The notes beneath the pieces are model-generated. The model saw only the letters and a program-made list of their open reading frames with translations. It had not been told where the DNA came from and did no database searches. This document shows positions 7,934 through 14,369 of a DNA stretch of 21,350 nucleotides, in pieces; within the stretch, counting starts at the first letter, position 1, and each line of letters begins with the position of its first letter. Location: positions 1 to 21,350 of IMG/VR virus record IMGVR_UViG_3300025141_000922; one strand, given 5' to 3'. This stretch comes from a virus. Position numbers and translations under genes: made by a program.

Positions 7934-8479
7934 ATGGCATTATTTTGGGACAATCCAGCAGCAGAACCGAAAAGAGCACATAGATTTTTGGTTACATTCG
8001 ACCTCCCGGGCAACGTTAGCTCGCAGATTTTCGCGCGCACGTTTACGAAGCCGGCTTATACTATTGGTGTCACAGAACATCAGTTTTTAGATAAGACCTT
8101 TTATTATCCAGGCCGCGTGACCTGGAACGAGATTACGATGCAATTTGTAAACTCGGCCTCCCCGGATATGGATGCTGAATTGGAAGCAGTCCTTAAGGCT
8201 TCAGGTTATAGGTTCCCCAATCAGGTTTCTACCAACAGCTCTGTTTTGGCTGCCGACGCCGCGACTGTTAATAAATTTGGCGCCGTGCACGCGATTGGAG
8301 AAAAGGTTCGTGTTACCGAATTAAATGGCGACGGAATTGCGCTGGGAACTCACGTTCTTAATAATCCCTTTGTAACCTCCATCTCTTATGGTACGCTGGA
8401 CTATTCCAGCGAGGATCTGCTGACCGTTGATATTAATTTACGCTACGATTGGTCTGAGTACCGCTTCGGCGGCGGCTGA
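7934..8479 (+). CDS. 19: Tail tube protein, T4 gp19-like
   Basis: This 181-residue protein stacks as rings to form the inner tail tube. It has the family's opening (W5, then EPKRAHRF at 11-18, leading into a strand), a conserved middle with FLDKTFYYPGRVTWNEITMQF (described here from residue about 51 onward), and a C-terminal set of strands beginning at NNPFVTSISYG (143-153) and ending in DWSEYRF. Length is close to T4 gp19 (163 residues). The ATG has AGAGG at 7920-7924, 9 bases upstream. The position right after the sheath gene is the standard 18-19 order. The gene ends with tandem stops TGA TAA, and the next gene starts 8 bases later. Confidence 0.9.
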   Translation: MALFWDNPAAEPKRAHRFLVTFDLPGNVSSQIFARTFTKPAYTIGVTEHQFLDKTFYYPGRVTWNEITMQFVNSASPDMDAELEAVLKASGYRFPNQVSTNSSVLAADAATVNKFGAVHAIGEKVRVTELNGDGIALGTHVLNNPFVTSISYGTLDYSSEDLLTVDINLRYDWSEYRFGGG

Positions 8480-8487
8480 TAAGCACC

Positions 8488-10230
8488 ATGGCCTCGAACT
8501 GGCCAAATAATTCCGGGCCCGTACCGGCGTCCACCGCCCCAAACCGGATTTCTTGGAGTGACCCTCTTCTAGAGCCAAAGCAACAACATAGATTTATTTG
8601 TGCTTTTCCGGTTTATATGCCCATGGGCAGCAAGAGTGACTCAGCCGAAGTGGCGCAAGCATATAACGCGACCTCTACTTCGGGCGTCCAACGATACTTA
8701 AAAAGTGTTACGGGCGACAGGACGACCGATGAAAAGAGAGCGGCCGCGTCGAGGGCGGCCTCGAAGAGTAGGGCAGAAGCAGAGGCACAACTCTCCCACT
8801 CCCAAACTGAAGTCGTGACCGTCTTCGGTGGCCAGGCGGCCTACGATGCGTGGAAGGTTTGGTACGACAATCAAGGCCAAAGGTCCGCAGACCACATCGC
8901 CCTCGCCCGGCGTCTCTCAGCATATGTAGTTAAATCCTTCACACCTCCTTCCTTTGGTGCAAGCATAGGTCAGACCGAGCAAACCGGCGCCCCCGCTAAT
9001 AAAACCGTCGACGACATGAAATCTGCTGGTACAATGGAATCGGCGCAGATTACATTAGTGAGCACCCTACAAGATGATCTTCACTTTTCGTTAAGTTTTC
9101 TGTATCAGCTGGCCAATCCTGGCGCTCCAGTCATCGGTGCCGGGGGCGCGTCTCTTCCAACAGTGGTTACACCTCGTTTATTTCCTGAGGCTGTCTGGCC
9201 TGATCTTGGCCCCACTAAACGGACACTATCAATTATAGACATGGGCGCCCGCATGAATCCCGGGGACACGAAAATAGAGCCGAATCAGCCGGCAACCAAA
9301 GCTTTTGCCAAGTATTTCGCCTCAACCCCCGTCGGGATTCATAAGTTGCATGATCCTTACATAACTGCGGTTAATTTTTCTGAATATTCTTATGGCGGGG
9401 AAGCTTTCCTCGAGGCGACTGTCACTTTGAGTCCTTCGACGAGTAACTATAGTTTCTATTCTTATGAAACATATGCCACCAGCTACCCGGAAGGCGGCGA
9501 TACAAGATATGGTCGTTACTCGGGTCTTAAGAATAAAGGACCCAACTCAAAGGTCAGCCAGCTACAGAGGCTTGTTACAGAGGCCTATTCTAAGTATCCT
9601 AATTTTGATCTTAAAGTTCATGATAACCCTCTGACTCAATTTCCTGGGGTGGCTATTGAAAATCATATCGCAGCGCGGACAAAACAGAAGCGCGAGCGAC
9701 TGATGGGCCTGGCAAATAAGGTTATGGCGAAGGCAAATGCCCAACAAGTTGGCCACAACCCCGCCGCCCCTAACCCGAGAACAGGAATGTTATATCCTCT
9801 TCTTCAGAATAAAACCCAAGAACTCGCAGCCGCCGCCGCTCAAAGACAGGCGCAGGAGGATGCTAACCTGGCAGCTCACGATCAACGTGTTGCTGAGGGG
9901 GAGGCCAATATGGCAGCCCAAAGCGAAGCAATCCGCCAGGAGGCTCTAGGCCGCGAACAATTCCGCCTCGACCAAGAGGACGCCCTCGACACCATCGGTT
10001 CGGACTACGACGCCCTCCGAGAACAACAACTTATCAGTGAGGATGCCGACTGGATCATCAGGAGAGATAGTCAGGAGATGGCTGGGCAGCAGCGGATGCA
10101 GGACATGCGCAACCGGTATGCCGCTCAGGGCGGTAGTGCTCAAGATGTACTCGCGCGCCGAATCGCGCGCCTTAGCGGCAATCAATCTTCATCCGGCGTG
10201 GATGTTAGCAACTTTGGCCAGGACGAATAA
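8488..10230 (+). CDS. Second tail-tube-like protein with insertion and C-terminal extension
   Basis: This 580-residue protein repeats the tube fold signatures of the gene before it. W23-x-x-P...EPK..HRF (23-36) parallels W5-x-x-P...EPK..HRF in the tube protein, and HDPYITAVNFSEYSYGGEAF (288-307) parallels the tube C-terminal strands. Between these, residues about 45-140 form a charged Ala/Ser/Lys insert. After residue about 330 a 250-residue extension becomes Ala/Gln/Glu-rich (AAAAAQRQAQEDANLAAHDQ near 447-466) and looks like coiled coil. In T4 only gp48 and gp54, the baseplate tube initiators, are known to share the gp19 fold, so this may be a specialised first or last tube ring, or a shaft decoration. 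No Shine-Dalgarno sequence is visible, so translation is probably coupled to the tube gene and lower. The tube homology is clear; the role is inferred. Confidence 0.7.
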   Translation: MASNWPNNSGPVPASTAPNRISWSDPLLEPKQQHRFICAFPVYMPMGSKSDSAEVAQAYNATSTSGVQRYLKSVTGDRTTDEKRAAASRAASKSRAEAEAQLSHSQTEVVTVFGGQAAYDAWKVWYDNQGQRSADHIALARRLSAYVVKSFTPPSFGASIGQTEQTGAPANKTVDDMKSAGTMESAQITLVSTLQDDLHFSLSFLYQLANPGAPVIGAGGASLPTVVTPRLFPEAVWPDLGPTKRTLSIIDMGARMNPGDTKIEPNQPATKAFAKYFASTPVGIHKLHDPYITAVNFSEYSYGGEAFLEATVTLSPSTSNYSFYSYETYATSYPEGGDTRYGRYSGLKNKGPNSKVSQLQRLVTEAYSKYPNFDLKVHDNPLTQFPGVAIENHIAARTKQKRERLMGLANKVMAKANAQQVGHNPAAPNPRTGMLYPLLQNKTQELAAAAAQRQAQEDANLAAHDQRVAEGEANMAAQSEAIRQEALGREQFRLDQEDALDTIGSDYDALREQQLISEDADWIIRRDSQEMAGQQRMQDMRNRYAAQGGSAQDVLARRIARLSGNQSSSGVDVSNFGQDE

Positions 10231-10284: not shown

Positions 10285-11163
10285 TTGGCACGCAGAAACA
10301 ATCCTGAGCGACTGGGGGCACCCCAGCCTGACGCTCCACCCCCTGACGCAGCACTACCACCGGAACAACAGGTCGACCCTTTGTCCTTTGTGGTTCCTAC
10401 GGAGTTCGTTGCGCTTCCGACCGAGGGGGCCTACTATCCTGACGGGCATCCTCTTCAAAAGGCTGACTCTGTTGAAATTAAATATATGACAGCCAAGGAG
10501 GAAGATCTTTTAAGTTCTCGTTCCTTGTTAGAAAAAGGACTCGTGCTTGATCGCCTCCTTGAGAACTTACTTGTGGACAAACACATACGTTCTCGCGACT
10601 TGCTGATGGCTGACCGGAATGCTATCTTGGTGGCGGCCCGGAGTTCGGGTTATGGCGAGGAGTATAAAACCAAGATTATGTGTCGATCTTGCACAGAATC
10701 CGACTCTTATAGCTACGATTTAAATAACGCTGTATCTACCGGACCTCTCTCTCCTGAAGAATTAGAAAGTATAAACGTGAAGCACAAAGGGGACGGCGTT
10801 TTTGCCGTACGTGTGCCTAATGCTCCTGTGGAGGTTGAGTTCCGTCTTCTTAGCGGCCATGATGAACGAGCCATGATGGACCTTGCGACCAAGAGAAAGA
10901 AAAAGAAGATGAATGACCAGTTAATTACCGACCAACTTAATTTTATGATTGTATCAGTCATGGGTCACGAGGATCCGGAGATTATTGGCCAGTATGTTGA
11001 TTCATTACCTTTACGAGATTCTCGGTTTTTGCGCGATACCTATGAGAAGGTAACCCCATCGCTCGATCTGCGAAAGGAGTTCGTCTGTAACCATTGCGGT
11101 TACGAGGACGACATCATCTTTCCCTTTACAGTCGACTTTTTTTGGCCTGACGCCGGAGTATAA
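10285..11163 (+). CDS. 26: Baseplate hub/tail assembly protein, T4 gp26-like (T4_baseplate family)
   Basis: This is a 292-residue protein from a TTG; AGAGAGG at 10272-10278 is 6 bases upstream and no other start fits. After a proline-rich leader it shows the family core: LPTEGAYYPDGHPLQ (about 45-59), VEIKYMTAKEEDLLSSRSLL (about 64-83), then a D.LL..L.VD box and DRNAILVAARSSGYG. A CRSC pair (133, 136) and a CNHC pair (268, 271) could bind zinc together. The ending LDLRKEFVCNHC...F.VDFFWP is also typical of the family. T4 gp26 (208 residues) acts in baseplate hub assembly and lies next to gene 51. Here an overlapping gp51-like frame follows in another phase, and the pair sits upstream of the tape measure as tail assembly chaperones do. 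The 292-residue form is probably the unshifted product. Confidence 0.8.
   Translation: MARRNNPERLGAPQPDAPPPDAALPPEQQVDPLSFVVPTEFVALPTEGAYYPDGHPLQKADSVEIKYMTAKEEDLLSSRSLLEKGLVLDRLLENLLVDKHIRSRDLLMADRNAILVAARSSGYGEEYKTKIMCRSCTESDSYSYDLNNAVSTGPLSPEELESINVKHKGDGVFAVRVPNAPVEVEFRLLSGHDERAMMDLATKRKKKKMNDQLITDQLNFMIVSVMGHEDPEIIGQYVDSLPLRDSRFLRDTYEKVTPSLDLRKEFVCNHCGYEDDIIFPFTVDFFWPDAGV
11137..11143 (+). promoter_or_regulatory. Candidate programmed frameshift site (T7 run)
   Basis: Seven T residues lie at the end of the gp26-like gene, read as GAC TTT TTT TGG. A +1 slip of the Phe-tRNA on the second TTT, or a -2 slip on the same codon, keeps perfect codon pairing. It enters the frame that reads GLTPEYNENIYEQFFF into the gp51-like segment. 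The zero frame ends six codons later at TAA 11161-11163. I see no strong downstream stem or nearby upstream Shine-Dalgarno-like stimulator. Confidence 0.5.
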
Positions 11164-11407
11164 CGAAAACATCTACGAACAGTTTTTCTTTTTGAAATAC
11201 CATGGTGGATGGGGCTTAATGGAAGCATATAACTTGCCCATCAAACTACGTGAATGGTTTGTGAAGCGCCTTATGAGGCAAAAAGAAGAAGAAAACGACG
11301 CTATCCAGGCAGCCTCAAAAGGCAAATCGTCCAGCGGTGCCCCACCCACGCAGCTGGGTCCCGGGAACGCCCCTCCTAGAATGCCTTCTTCTAGCCCCCG
11401 CAAATAA
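11144..11407 (+). CDS. Small gp51/gpT-like chaperone segment, probably reached by frameshift
   Basis: This 87-residue segment reads GLTPEYNENIYEQFFF, then LKYHGGWGLMEAYNLPIKLR, then EWFVKRLMRQKEEEN, and ends in a Ser/Pro/Gly-rich tail. The pattern (I/L)YEx(I/F)FxLxYHxx(W/F)xxxEAYxLPxxxRxWFxxR(L/I) is one I associate with small proteins encoded next to gp26-like genes in T4-like phages. It also occurs in small tail assembly proteins of contractile systems. The open frame runs from 11054, but between there and 11192 it has no ATG, GTG or TTG. The only standard start, TTG 11192, has no Shine-Dalgarno sequence and would delete the conserved IYEQFFF part. The simplest reading is a gp26-gp51 fusion of about 373 residues made by frameshifting at 11137-11143. 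Alternatives are a rare start codon or an assembly error in the T7 run. Confidence 0.65.
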   Translation, partial: GLTPEYNENIYEQFFFLKYHGGWGLMEAYNLPIKLREWFVKRLMRQKEEENDAIQAASKGKSSSGAPPTQLGPGNAPPRMPSSSPRK

Positions 11408-11457: not shown

Positions 11458-11793
11458 ATGTCTGATGGTCTACAACCAATTGTTATAAATCTGAATGCCA
11501 ATAAAGAGACCAAGCTGAACGAAGCATGGCTGGCGATGCTCGGGGGTGCCATCGAAACACTCCTTAAGAGCATGTTTGGATCTCCGTCTGGCTTCACGAG
11601 CAAATATAGTATTACGGGAACCGCCCCGCAGATCGCCGCCTTTGGCGAAGCGTTGGGGAAAGAAAAGAAATATATGGAAGCCTTCCTGAAACATGGTCTT
11701 AATGACCCTCGTTCATTTTCGTCTAAAGCAGCTCTTAACCAATCGGTGGCCAATTTTGAGCGGGAGACGGGAATTAAGTGGCCCATCAAGTAA
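11458..11793 (+). CDS. Small conserved-type protein upstream of the tape measure, function unknown
   Basis: This 111-residue soluble protein starts after GAGGA at 11447-11451. Its first half is a strand (IVINLNANKE) and a helix (NEAWLAMLGGAIETLLKSMF). The second half contains EKKYMEAFLKHGLNDPRSFS followed by SKAALNQSVANFERETGIKW and a final PIK. I recall similar endings (a GLxDPRT/S(Y/F) turn, an NFE/KFE helix, TG(I/L)KWP) in unnamed small proteins of T4-like phages near genes 26 and 29, but I cannot verify this. No signal peptide or membrane segment is seen. The setting between a chaperone pair and the tape measure suggests a role in hub or tape-measure assembly, possibly equivalent to T4 gene 28, though no similarity to gp28 is claimed. 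Confidence 0.75.
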   Translation: MSDGLQPIVINLNANKETKLNEAWLAMLGGAIETLLKSMFGSPSGFTSKYSITGTAPQIAAFGEALGKEKKYMEAFLKHGLNDPRSFSSKAALNQSVANFERETGIKWPIK

Positions 11794-11804
11794 GGATATG
11801 TTAA

Positions 11805-14369
11805 ATGCCTGAACTGGACCAACGTCAACTGGAAATGCTTCGCGAAGCTATTAAGCTTCAAAAAGAGAAAAAAGCCCTTACTCAAGAGCAAATAAAACTC
11901 CTGCAGGATGAAGGCATATATGTGGAGAAGAATTCCAAACATTACGAAGACCAGCTAAAAAACATTCAGCGTTACCTGGATGCGGCCACCGCCCGGCTAA
12001 CCGAAGAGAACAAGATTTCCGAAATCATCGCCCGCCAATACGAGATGCAAGAGGCGCAAGTCAACATTCAGAACGCTCATATTCGCGCAAGCCGGGAATT
12101 CCTGAATGACAGTGAAAGAAAACTAGAAATGCAGCAACAGTCGCTGCAAAATGCGCTCAAAGAAGAGCTGCAACTTAAACGGTTACTCAAGCTTCACGAG
12201 AAGGTTAATACGGAGCAGGAGTTATCGGCTAAAGAACTGGCCGACCTTCGACGATTACAAATAAAATTCGGTCATAAAACCGTAGACCAGCTCAAAGAAA
12301 TGGAAAAACTCGCCAAAGACAGAAAAGGTGCGATCGCTTTTGCTAACTCCGCGTTGAAAGATCAAGTGAGAGTCACGAAGAAGACCCTCATCCTACAAGA
12401 AGAGCAGCGCGATGCAGCCGTAGACTATAAAGATGCTGTGAAAGGCGTCGACGTGGGCATCGCTGGACTCTTCAAGAAGTTCATCGGCCTCACCGACCAG
12501 AGCAACAGTTTTATCGGTCACTTGGACACACTAACCGAGGGCGGCAAAAACTGGGGCGCCGCAATTGACCGAGTAAAGATGGTGTGGAAAGGTTTGGCGA
12601 CTCCCATCAACGGTCTGGTAATGATTGTGGGGGCACTCGCCCTAGCCACCATGAAGTGGATGATGGACTTTTCAAAAGAGACTTCCAACTTCCAGAAGAC
12701 CACCGGTATTATTGAATCAGGTTTGGGTAGCATTCAAAACCGAATAAACAACGTTCAGCGCGCCAACATTAAATATGGCGTTTCTATGCAAGAAGCTTTT
12801 GCTAGCGCGGCCGCCTTATCCACCGAGATACGCGGATTTAATCGTATGGCGGGGGATAGCCAAGATCAGTTGACGCGCATAACGGCGTTAATGGGCGAGT
12901 TTGGTGCATCTGCTCAGACCACTGGCGCCATTTTTAATGTGTTCTCAAAGGGGTTGGGTTATAATTCTCAACAACTTGAAAATTTGGGTCTTGAGTTAAC
13001 AGCAATTTCTAAGTCTCTTGGGCGCCCACTACAGGAAGTTACAGAGGACTTCAAAGCAGCGATGCCCGAATTAATGAAATATGGTGACGGTATGACTGAT
13101 GTCTTTACCCAACTTCAAGAACAGTCGGTTGGCACCGGCATCGCGATGCAGGAATTATTGGGCATCGCAAAACAGTTTGACACTTTCGAGGATGCTGGAA
13201 ATGCTGTCGGGCGCCTTAATGCTATTCTAGGAGGCCCCTATTTAAATGCTATGGAAATGGTTCATGCCACAGAAGCTGAACGTATTCAGATGATGCGAGA
13301 CAGCGTCAGCGCCACCGGCCGTCAGTTTAAGGATATGGAGCGTTTTGAGAAGCAAGTAATTGCTAATGCTGCAGGAATTACGGATATGTCCAAAGCCGAA
13401 ATGTTGTTTGGATCTACGGATTCTGCCTACGCCGACCGTGCCATGGATATGCAAGAAATGGCTAATCGCGCCCAAGCCGCCCAGTCTGTGCAGGATAAAC
13501 TTACCCAAGCAATGCAAACGTTCATGATCGCGCTGGGCCCGCTGGTGACAATTCTCTCCGAAGTTATGGATGTTCTTCTTCAGATTTTGCAACCTTTCTC
13601 TGGGTTGAACGAAGCGATGCCCAAAACGGCCAAGTTTTTAAATACTCTTACGGTGTTGCTAGCTGCTGGCGCTATCGCATGGAAGGCGTTTGGTGTCAAT
13701 ATGGCCACGGCCCTCGCCCCTGTAGCCGTTTTCGTGGTGATGTATCTTGCAATCAAGAAGGTTTTGGATCTGATGGAAGAAAGGTTCGGCCCCGCAGGAA
13801 AGGCCGCCATGGGGCTGGCAGTTACTCTGCTCGCGGTAGGCGCCGGCTTCATGATAGCAAGCGCCGGCCCTACGCTTGGTGGTTCTGTGCTCCTGTGGTC
13901 CGCTGCCATCGCCGCCGGCCTGGCTGGTGTGGCTGGGATGATATCAGGCTTTGGTAGCATGCCTAAGTATGCCCTAGGCATCGACAACGCCCCTGGTGGC
14001 CACGCACTCGTCGGAGAGGCCGGCCCTGAAATGATTACTACAGGCGGAGGCGCCTATATGGCCGAAGGACCGTCTGTGGTAGATCTTCCACCCGGCGCAA
14101 ATGTTATCAACAATAAGAATACCGAGGCACTAGTAAAACGAGGTGGTTCCGCCGGCGCAGGCGGCTCAATACCTCCTGCATTAATTGCTTCGCTTAGGCA
14201 GCTCCAGCGCGCGATTGAGATATTAAATCAAAACATTTCAGCAGATCGACAAAAAGACCCGGCAGCAGACCAGCCAGTCATTATTACCATGGATGGTAAA
14301 AAGCTGGCAGAGACAGTTATTTCTCGCATAAATAAGCGTTCTAAACTAACTATTAGTAAGGCAGGTTAA
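11805..14369 (+). CDS. 29: Tape measure protein (T4 gp29 position)
   Basis: This 854-residue protein sets tail length and passes through the tube. Residues 1-240 are almost purely charged helix, rich in Gln, Glu, Lys and Leu, and look like coiled coil. A hydrophobic stretch near 266-289 (INGLVMIVGALALATMKWMM) is followed by a mixed alpha-helical middle. Two strongly hydrophobic regions lie at about 615-660 and 667-717. The C-terminal part has the widespread tape-measure signature GHALVGEAGPEMITTGG, then VVDLPPGANVI, with Gly/Ala linkers. T4 gp29 is 590 residues; a longer tape measure predicts a longer tail. TAAGGA at 11791-11796, overlapping the previous stop, lies 8 bases before the ATG. The location after the chaperone-like pair fits. 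Confidence 0.9.
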   Translation: MPELDQRQLEMLREAIKLQKEKKALTQEQIKLLQDEGIYVEKNSKHYEDQLKNIQRYLDAATARLTEENKISEIIARQYEMQEAQVNIQNAHIRASREFLNDSERKLEMQQQSLQNALKEELQLKRLLKLHEKVNTEQELSAKELADLRRLQIKFGHKTVDQLKEMEKLAKDRKGAIAFANSALKDQVRVTKKTLILQEEQRDAAVDYKDAVKGVDVGIAGLFKKFIGLTDQSNSFIGHLDTLTEGGKNWGAAIDRVKMVWKGLATPINGLVMIVGALALATMKWMMDFSKETSNFQKTTGIIESGLGSIQNRINNVQRANIKYGVSMQEAFASAAALSTEIRGFNRMAGDSQDQLTRITALMGEFGASAQTTGAIFNVFSKGLGYNSQQLENLGLELTAISKSLGRPLQEVTEDFKAAMPELMKYGDGMTDVFTQLQEQSVGTGIAMQELLGIAKQFDTFEDAGNAVGRLNAILGGPYLNAMEMVHATEAERIQMMRDSVSATGRQFKDMERFEKQVIANAAGITDMSKAEMLFGSTDSAYADRAMDMQEMANRAQAAQSVQDKLTQAMQTFMIALGPLVTILSEVMDVLLQILQPFSGLNEAMPKTAKFLNTLTVLLAAGAIAWKAFGVNMATALAPVAVFVVMYLAIKKVLDLMEERFGPAGKAAMGLAVTLLAVGAGFMIASAGPTLGGSVLLWSAAIAAGLAGVAGMISGFGSMPKYALGIDNAPGGHALVGEAGPEMITTGGGAYMAEGPSVVDLPPGANVINNKNTEALVKRGGSAGAGGSIPPALIASLRQLQRAIEILNQNISADRQKDPAADQPVIITMDGKKLAETVISRINKRSKLTISKAG

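Follow-up and report, generated by a model that had tools for sequence, protein, structure and literature searches.

A 21,350-nucleotide stretch of viral DNA (IMG/VR record IMGVR_UViG_3300025141_000922, positions 1-21,350; hereafter, the window) contains a tail gene that very probably gives rise to two tail assembly chaperones (TACs), as judged from the comparison of homologous sequences: a short protein of 292 amino acids (aa), TAC-N, and a long one of 373 aa, TAC-NC, the latter via a +1 ribosomal frameshift at UUU_U. Of the two frames involved, the upstream one is best interpreted as encoding the short chaperone, TAC-N, and the downstream one an added domain, TAC-C. The key observations on this locus and its relatives are described below.

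TAC-N occupies positions 10285-11163 of the plus strand, on which TAC-C, the tail tube gene and the tape measure gene are located as well. It starts with TTG, defines the zero frame (phase 1) and ends at TAA 11161-11163, with the 3' end reading GTC GAC TTT TTT TGG CCT GAC GCC GGA GTA TAA. The zero-frame TTT TTT, together with the T of TGG, forms a run of 7 T's (T7) at 11137-11143, which is the sole T7 in the window and makes up the core of the proposed shift site. TAC-C, the C-terminal domain of the long chaperone, spans 11144-11407 (87 codons and a stop) in phase 2, that is, at a +1 offset, and would be accessible to ribosomes solely through the shift; the segment from the shift site to the TAC-N stop (11144-11163) is dual-coded. 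From 11054, just after the stop TAA 11051-11053, the downstream frame stays open up to TAA 11405-11407, and its first ATG, GTG or TTG is TTG 11192, which lacks a Shine-Dalgarno sequence in front. An earlier note on this DNA had pointed to the T7 in the overlap of the two frames and to the lack of any ATG, GTG or TTG between 11054 and TTG 11192, and both observations are confirmed. A +1 move at the T7 yields a 373-aa product that contains ...VDFFGLTPEYNENIYEQFFFLKYHGGWG....

Aligning related loci, the check that the earlier note had proposed, reveals the same arrangement almost throughout. Loci were collected by similarity to TAC-N (80) and to TAC-C (80), along with several named phages; searches of viral contigs with the TAC-N of phages SP-15 and Paride added few new loci. 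The main set consists of 164 loci including the window, with 119 +1 loci, less than 85% identical to each other, left after the removal of near-copies. The downstream domain is in the +1 phase at the same place in 161 of the 164 loci, and the slip motif is conserved; the other 3 loci, with TTC TTC, are in the -1 phase. The usual site of the relatives is TTT TTT TGG CCT: 133 loci contain TTT TTT TGG, 16 contain TTC TTT TGG, 6 contain TTT CTT TGG and 3 contain TTT TTT TAC, the rest being the 3 loci with TTC TTC TGG and three singletons. A slip tetramer of the form (U/C)UU_Y, namely UUU_U, CUU_U or UUU_C, is present in all 161 +1-phase loci; it is retained where the T-run is broken, in TTC TTT T (16 loci) and TTT CTT T (6 loci), and in loci L078 (TTT TTA TGG) and L084 (TTT CTA TTC), UUU_U and UUU_C, respectively, remain available at the first Phe codon. 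Such sharing of the phase and of a slippery Phe-Phe motif by 161 of 164 loci is more than chance.

Codon usage at the site points in the same direction. After dereplication, all 111 loci with Phe at the second position of the pair encode it by TTT, compared to 78% TTT among the upstream Phe codons of the same genes (p about 8e-13; here as elsewhere, the p-values of the conservation tests ignore relatedness). Among the 119 dereplicated loci, the first codon of the pair is TTT in 111, TGG follows the Phe pair in 115, and CCT follows TGG in 116. The base before the run, C in the window, is T in none of the 119 +1 loci, compared to 26% before other Phe codons, as expected if the -1 heptamer is avoided. 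The Phe pair of the window does not form a canonical -1 site, X_XXY_YYZ, as C precedes the run and the downstream frame is in the +1 phase. TAC-C itself is conserved among the +1 relatives, and so are the residues preceding LKYHGGWG (GLTPEYNENIYEQFFF), as the earlier note had suspected from their appearance.

The pattern of variability shows where one coding frame gives way to the other. Upstream of the site, the zero-frame position 3 is the most variable (1.73 bits) and position 2 the least (1.08 bits); downstream, it is the +1 position 3 that varies most (1.52-1.57 bits) and the +1 position 2 that varies least (0.63 bits). Inside long overlaps, the +1 position 2 is already the least variable, at 0.80 bits vs 1.32 bits at the +1 position 3.

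Within this region, the +1 phase could also be attained two codons later, by a +1 slip of tRNA-Pro at CCU_N (CCT 11146-11148), as in Listeria phage PSA, with the junction peptide VDFFWPTPEYNE. Shifting by +1 on proline codons is known (PMC5009743), and CCT is present in 116 of the 119 dereplicated loci; indeed, this slip was favoured first, when CCT seemed invariant among the first 84 loci, and was then refuted by loci that lack CCT and keep Gly-Leu. The zero-frame Pro is lost in eight loci from three groups, all of which preserve the +1 Gly-Leu via synonymous changes: TGG CTT with +1 GGC TTG in L111 and L112, TGG GCT with +1 GGG CTC in L137, L138, L148 and L150, and TGG TTT with +1 GGT TTA in L147 and L149. 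Given that Gly-Leu is kept even though Pro is lost, the slip would have to occur upstream of GGC, at UUU_U, to the exclusion of CCU. Furthermore, CCT is missing in SP-15, RM378 and the Streptomyces relatives, all four bases occur after CCT, and the invariable use of TTT for the second Phe would lack an explanation, making a proline slip highly improbable. The junction peptide predicted for a +1 slip at UUU_U is ...VDFFGLTPEYNE....

The earlier note had proposed a programmed shift of either +1 or -2, and of the two, it is +1 that stands, fitting every locus in the +1 phase. A -2 shift at the T-run, such as that of phage Mu, would reach the same phase with one extra Phe (VDFFFGL vs VDFFGL), and where the site has its most common form (133 of 164 loci), the T7 does let the P-site tRNA-Phe re-pair two bases back. 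However, in TTC TTT TGG (16 loci) and TTT CTT TGG (6 loci), such a move would leave this tRNA with core mismatches to UCU or UUC, whereas a +1 move works, and the UUU_C sites of SP-15, SagM and two Streptomyces phages fit +1 as well, so that a -2 shift is very unlikely. Homopolymers are also prone to insertions and deletions (indels), and polymerase slippage on the T-run, or an indel introduced by sequencing or assembly, would bring both parts into one frame; but the same phase would be needed in all 161 +1 loci, including the 119 divergent ones, and a C interrupts the run in 22 loci with the phase kept, leaving this explanation with next to no probability. The broken T-runs thus argue against both the -2 shift and transcriptional slippage.

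Alternatively, TAC-C could be a separate gene that is translated from a start of its own, TTG 11192 or a non-standard codon, or through coupling to the stop of the gp26-like gene. Translational coupling is frequent among overlapping tail genes, and some relatives possess upstream starts with a Shine-Dalgarno-like sequence. Nevertheless, 38 of the 119 dereplicated loci, including the window, have no ATG, GTG or TTG between the upstream stop and TAC-C residue 12, and five loci have none anywhere in TAC-C; moreover, conservation starts at the T-run rather than at a start codon, and the slip motif would be left unexplained. As a general rule, a separate start for TAC-C is excluded, and for the window, a separate gene is very unlikely compared to a +1 shift at UUU_U.

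The identity of the two frames is established to different extents. The earlier note had called them gp26-like and gp51-like, and the former assignment stands: TAC-N matches PF12322 (T4_baseplate; E 1.2e-9, 38.7 bits) above the curated cut-off of 24.5 and phrog_150 with E 1.2e-11. In the AlphaFold2 model of TAC-N (alignment of 37 sequences; predicted local distance difference test score, pLDDT, 90.6), the N-terminal domain, at about residues 25-127, appears to have a chaperone-like fold. The top VIA-align match of this model among 957 chains is the HK97 TAC 2ob9 (Z 5.1, 89 aligned residues, root-mean-square deviation (rmsd) 7.9), followed by YqbN 3klu (Z 5.0, 78 aligned, rmsd 3.3), with the next chain at 3.5. 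A Foldseek comparison of the model to solved structures gave no significant match (2ob9, E 0.86), the structural matches in BFVD are to the gp26 of T4-like phages, and a single-sequence model of the whole fusion is poor (pLDDT 35). Because the modelled upstream protein appears to fold like a TAC, TAC-N and TAC-NC would be the short and long members of a chaperone pair encoded ahead of the tape measure gene; the role in tail assembly that the earlier note had envisaged is well supported by comparative evidence. The tape measure protein is the expected client of these chaperones, which, by their position and fold, would bind it; as chaperones, both would be expected to be missing from virions.

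The likeness of TAC-C to gp51 did not hold up beyond a weak resemblance, in the C-terminal part at best. Only 1 of 34 TAC-C members matches phrog_634 (gp51; E 0.008), and T4 gp51 shows no significant similarity to the TAC-C profile with hhalign (P-value 0.49). There are weak matches to phrog_20255 (10 of 34 members) and matches to DUF6760 (PF20546) at E up to 0.1 (13 of 34; best 3.2e-5), with the TAC-C of the window below the curated cut-off of that family (18.2 vs 27 bits). In a phylum sample, DUF6760 turned up in 3 of 296; a search for it gave no match in the genomes of four loci, and no mention of it was found in the papers searched. In two bacterial loci (L194:871-1626 and L195:871-1626), a TAC-N-like part and a DUF6760 part make up one 251-aa protein, fused just past the Phe-Phe, which supports the fused TAC-N/TAC-C architecture independently of any frameshift. 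These fusion genes adjoin a tube-like gene and possibly belong to contractile injection systems. In L193, a bacterial contractile-system locus, the reverse strand contains a gp26-like frame that overlaps a DUF6760 frame in the -1 phase at TCG GGG GAA (approximately 1480-1500 of the reverse complement); a usual start codon is lacking, and a -1 shift is possible there.

In the mechanism that we propose, most ribosomes would terminate at the TAC-N stop, 11161-11163. A minority would slip 1 base forward at the tetramer UUU_U (11140-11143), when peptidyl-tRNA-Phe sits on UUU 11140-11142 and UGG (the zero-frame TGG, Trp, 11143-11145) waits in the A site. The slipped tRNA would re-pair with UUU 11141-11143, GGC-CUG would be decoded, with Gly in place of Trp, and translation would proceed to 11407. 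TAC-N and TAC-NC together would then cover the tape measure and bring in tube subunits, similarly to gpG and gpGT of phage lambda.

Several points weigh against this scenario. RNAalifold, applied to two groups of loci, found no conserved stimulatory RNA structure; the folding bias near the site is only weak, with mean z-scores of -0.6 to -1.2 and a form that is not conserved; and no conserved Shine-Dalgarno-like element was found directly upstream of the site. In the absence of such elements, the efficiency of the shift may be low. A UUU-UGG site in Yersinia yopN, proposed for +1 shifting, proved dispensable when mutated (PMC3789692), so a slip tetramer alone is no proof of shifting. Finally, the fold Z-scores of about 5 lie under Z 8 and are not decisive alone.

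Distant relatives divide cleanly between the +1 and the -1 phase. The +1 phase is seen in SP-15, SagM, LuckySocke and BRock (all with TTT C), in RM378 (TTT TTT TGG AAT, lacking CCT) and in LIS04 (TTT A, a poorer fit). Culturable members of the +1 type include Flavobacterium phage immuto, Microcystis phage Mel-JY01 and Bacillus phage SP-15. The -1 phase, with T_TTT_TTC, T_TTT_TTT or T_TTT_TTG, is found in XacN1, Paride, Atu_ph07, LR756511 and L177, as well as in P-SSM7, ACG-2014g, phiWae14, RL2RES, V09 and Moby, which represent classical T4-like groups and contain T_TTT_TTC/G. In a nested subclade (L033, L037, L040 and L181-L184; e.g., L040:2500-2760), TAC-C is in the -1 phase, with the conserved canonical heptamer A_AAT_TTC, and TTC TTC TGG takes the place of TTT TTT TGG. 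The motif class predicts the phase: loci with T_TTT_TT(C/T/G) or A_AAT_TTC are -1. In Salmonella phage GG32 (L201:1600-1660), a TAC-C-like frame is in the -1 phase with no canonical heptamer (GAG ATT TTC ATT TAA).

In the phylogenetic tree, representatives of the A_AAT_TTC subclade form a clade (support 100/99) nested within the +1 clade (99/91), an apparent reversal of the direction of frameshifting. The tree requires four direction changes, two of which are forced by well-supported branches; the deep branches are long and unsure. It seems probable that the direction switched in evolution at one homologous Phe-Phe pair: the classical groups would shift by -1 at T_TTT_TTC/G, a large clade of uncultured phages by +1 at V_TTT_TTT_T (V, not T), and the nested subclade by -1 again, at A_AAT_TTC, with the bases before and after the run setting the direction. 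If so, UUU_U, seldom seen as a natural site, would serve an entire phage lineage as its usual +1 site. A putative +1 site that is kept through deep divergence, along with natural variants that show where the slip would occur, offers a test set for the choice of direction by bacterial ribosomes.

These observations also bear on annotation. In deposited genomes, TAC-C is misannotated or missed (L082:3833-3943, L086:2706-2938, L196:1974-2069): in phages immuto and P-SSM7, it is truncated to a short hypothetical protein, which in immuto has 36 aa and covers only a part of it, or to a short gp51, and in LIS04, it is unannotated. Databases therefore lack the fusion proteins, which would be expected to play a central part in the control of tail length.

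The tail tube gene, upstream of the chaperone gene (7934-8479; phrog_4542, tail tube, E 3.8e-16), and the tape measure gene (11805-14369; phrog_167, tape measure, E 8.5e-13, with a sub-threshold match to TMP_2) flank it in the order tube, TAC-N, tape measure, which is found likewise in L082, L083 and L085. Between the tube gene and TAC-N, there is a 580-aa protein at 8488-10230, and between TAC-C and the tape measure, a 111-aa open reading frame at 11458-11793; neither has a Pfam or PHROG match.

Frameshifting in tail chaperone genes is textbook knowledge, with lambda gpG/gpGT as the example. Among the tail chaperone frameshifts studied, most go in the -1 direction, and those of T4-like phages are described as -1 or absent. 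Lambda, too, shifts by -1, in contrast to the +1 proposed here, and the window protein differs from the lambda pair also in the presence of a further C-terminal half with Cys-rich, zinc-ribbon-like parts; sequence similarity between them was neither looked for nor seen. The T4-like chaperone genes were reportedly identified by Vladimirov, Gautam and Davidson in 2022 (Virology 566:9), along with -1 frameshifting in several T4-like groups. What looks new here is the +1 direction, although that study may already mention a +1 group.

Across different phages, -1, -2 and +1 tail chaperone shifts have been described (PMC5009743). Like the window, HSTV-2 (+1), Mu (-2) and PSA (+1, at a proline codon) contain tail genes that reach the +1 phase, but they employ other slip codons, and none is given as a clade-wide conserved UUU_U motif (PMC5009743). 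Outside tail genes, the release factor 2 (RF2, prfB) +1 site is CUU_U, with UUU_U in a minority of species (PMC5009743), and the influenza PA-X +1 site is UUU_C (PMC3498833). In both, as would be the case here, a P-site tRNA paired with CUU or UUU slips onto the following UUU or UUC; the clade of the window differs in having mostly UGG in the A site and no stimulator found.

The closest counterparts are the T4-like phages themselves. The earlier note had held that frameshifting is not standard in T4-like 26/51 pairs, a view at odds with the -1 phase seen in the classical groups and with passages of citing papers that report -1 shifting, among them one describing poly-T -1 signals in T4-like TAC-N genes (PMC12846349); another such passage describes separate short and long chaperone genes in some T4-like phages (PMC10885494). 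T4 gp26 can be aligned to TAC-N over its length, as far as the Phe-Phe at the end, but genes 26 and 51 of T4 are separate and located on opposite strands, so T4 itself has no shift. The T4-like -1 TACs share with the locus in the window the gp26/PF12322 family, the position between tube and tape measure, and the Phe-Phe poly-T just before the TAC-N stop, and differ from it in the shift, which is -1 at T_TTT_TTC/G there and, as proposed, +1 at V_TTT_TTT_T in the clade of the window.
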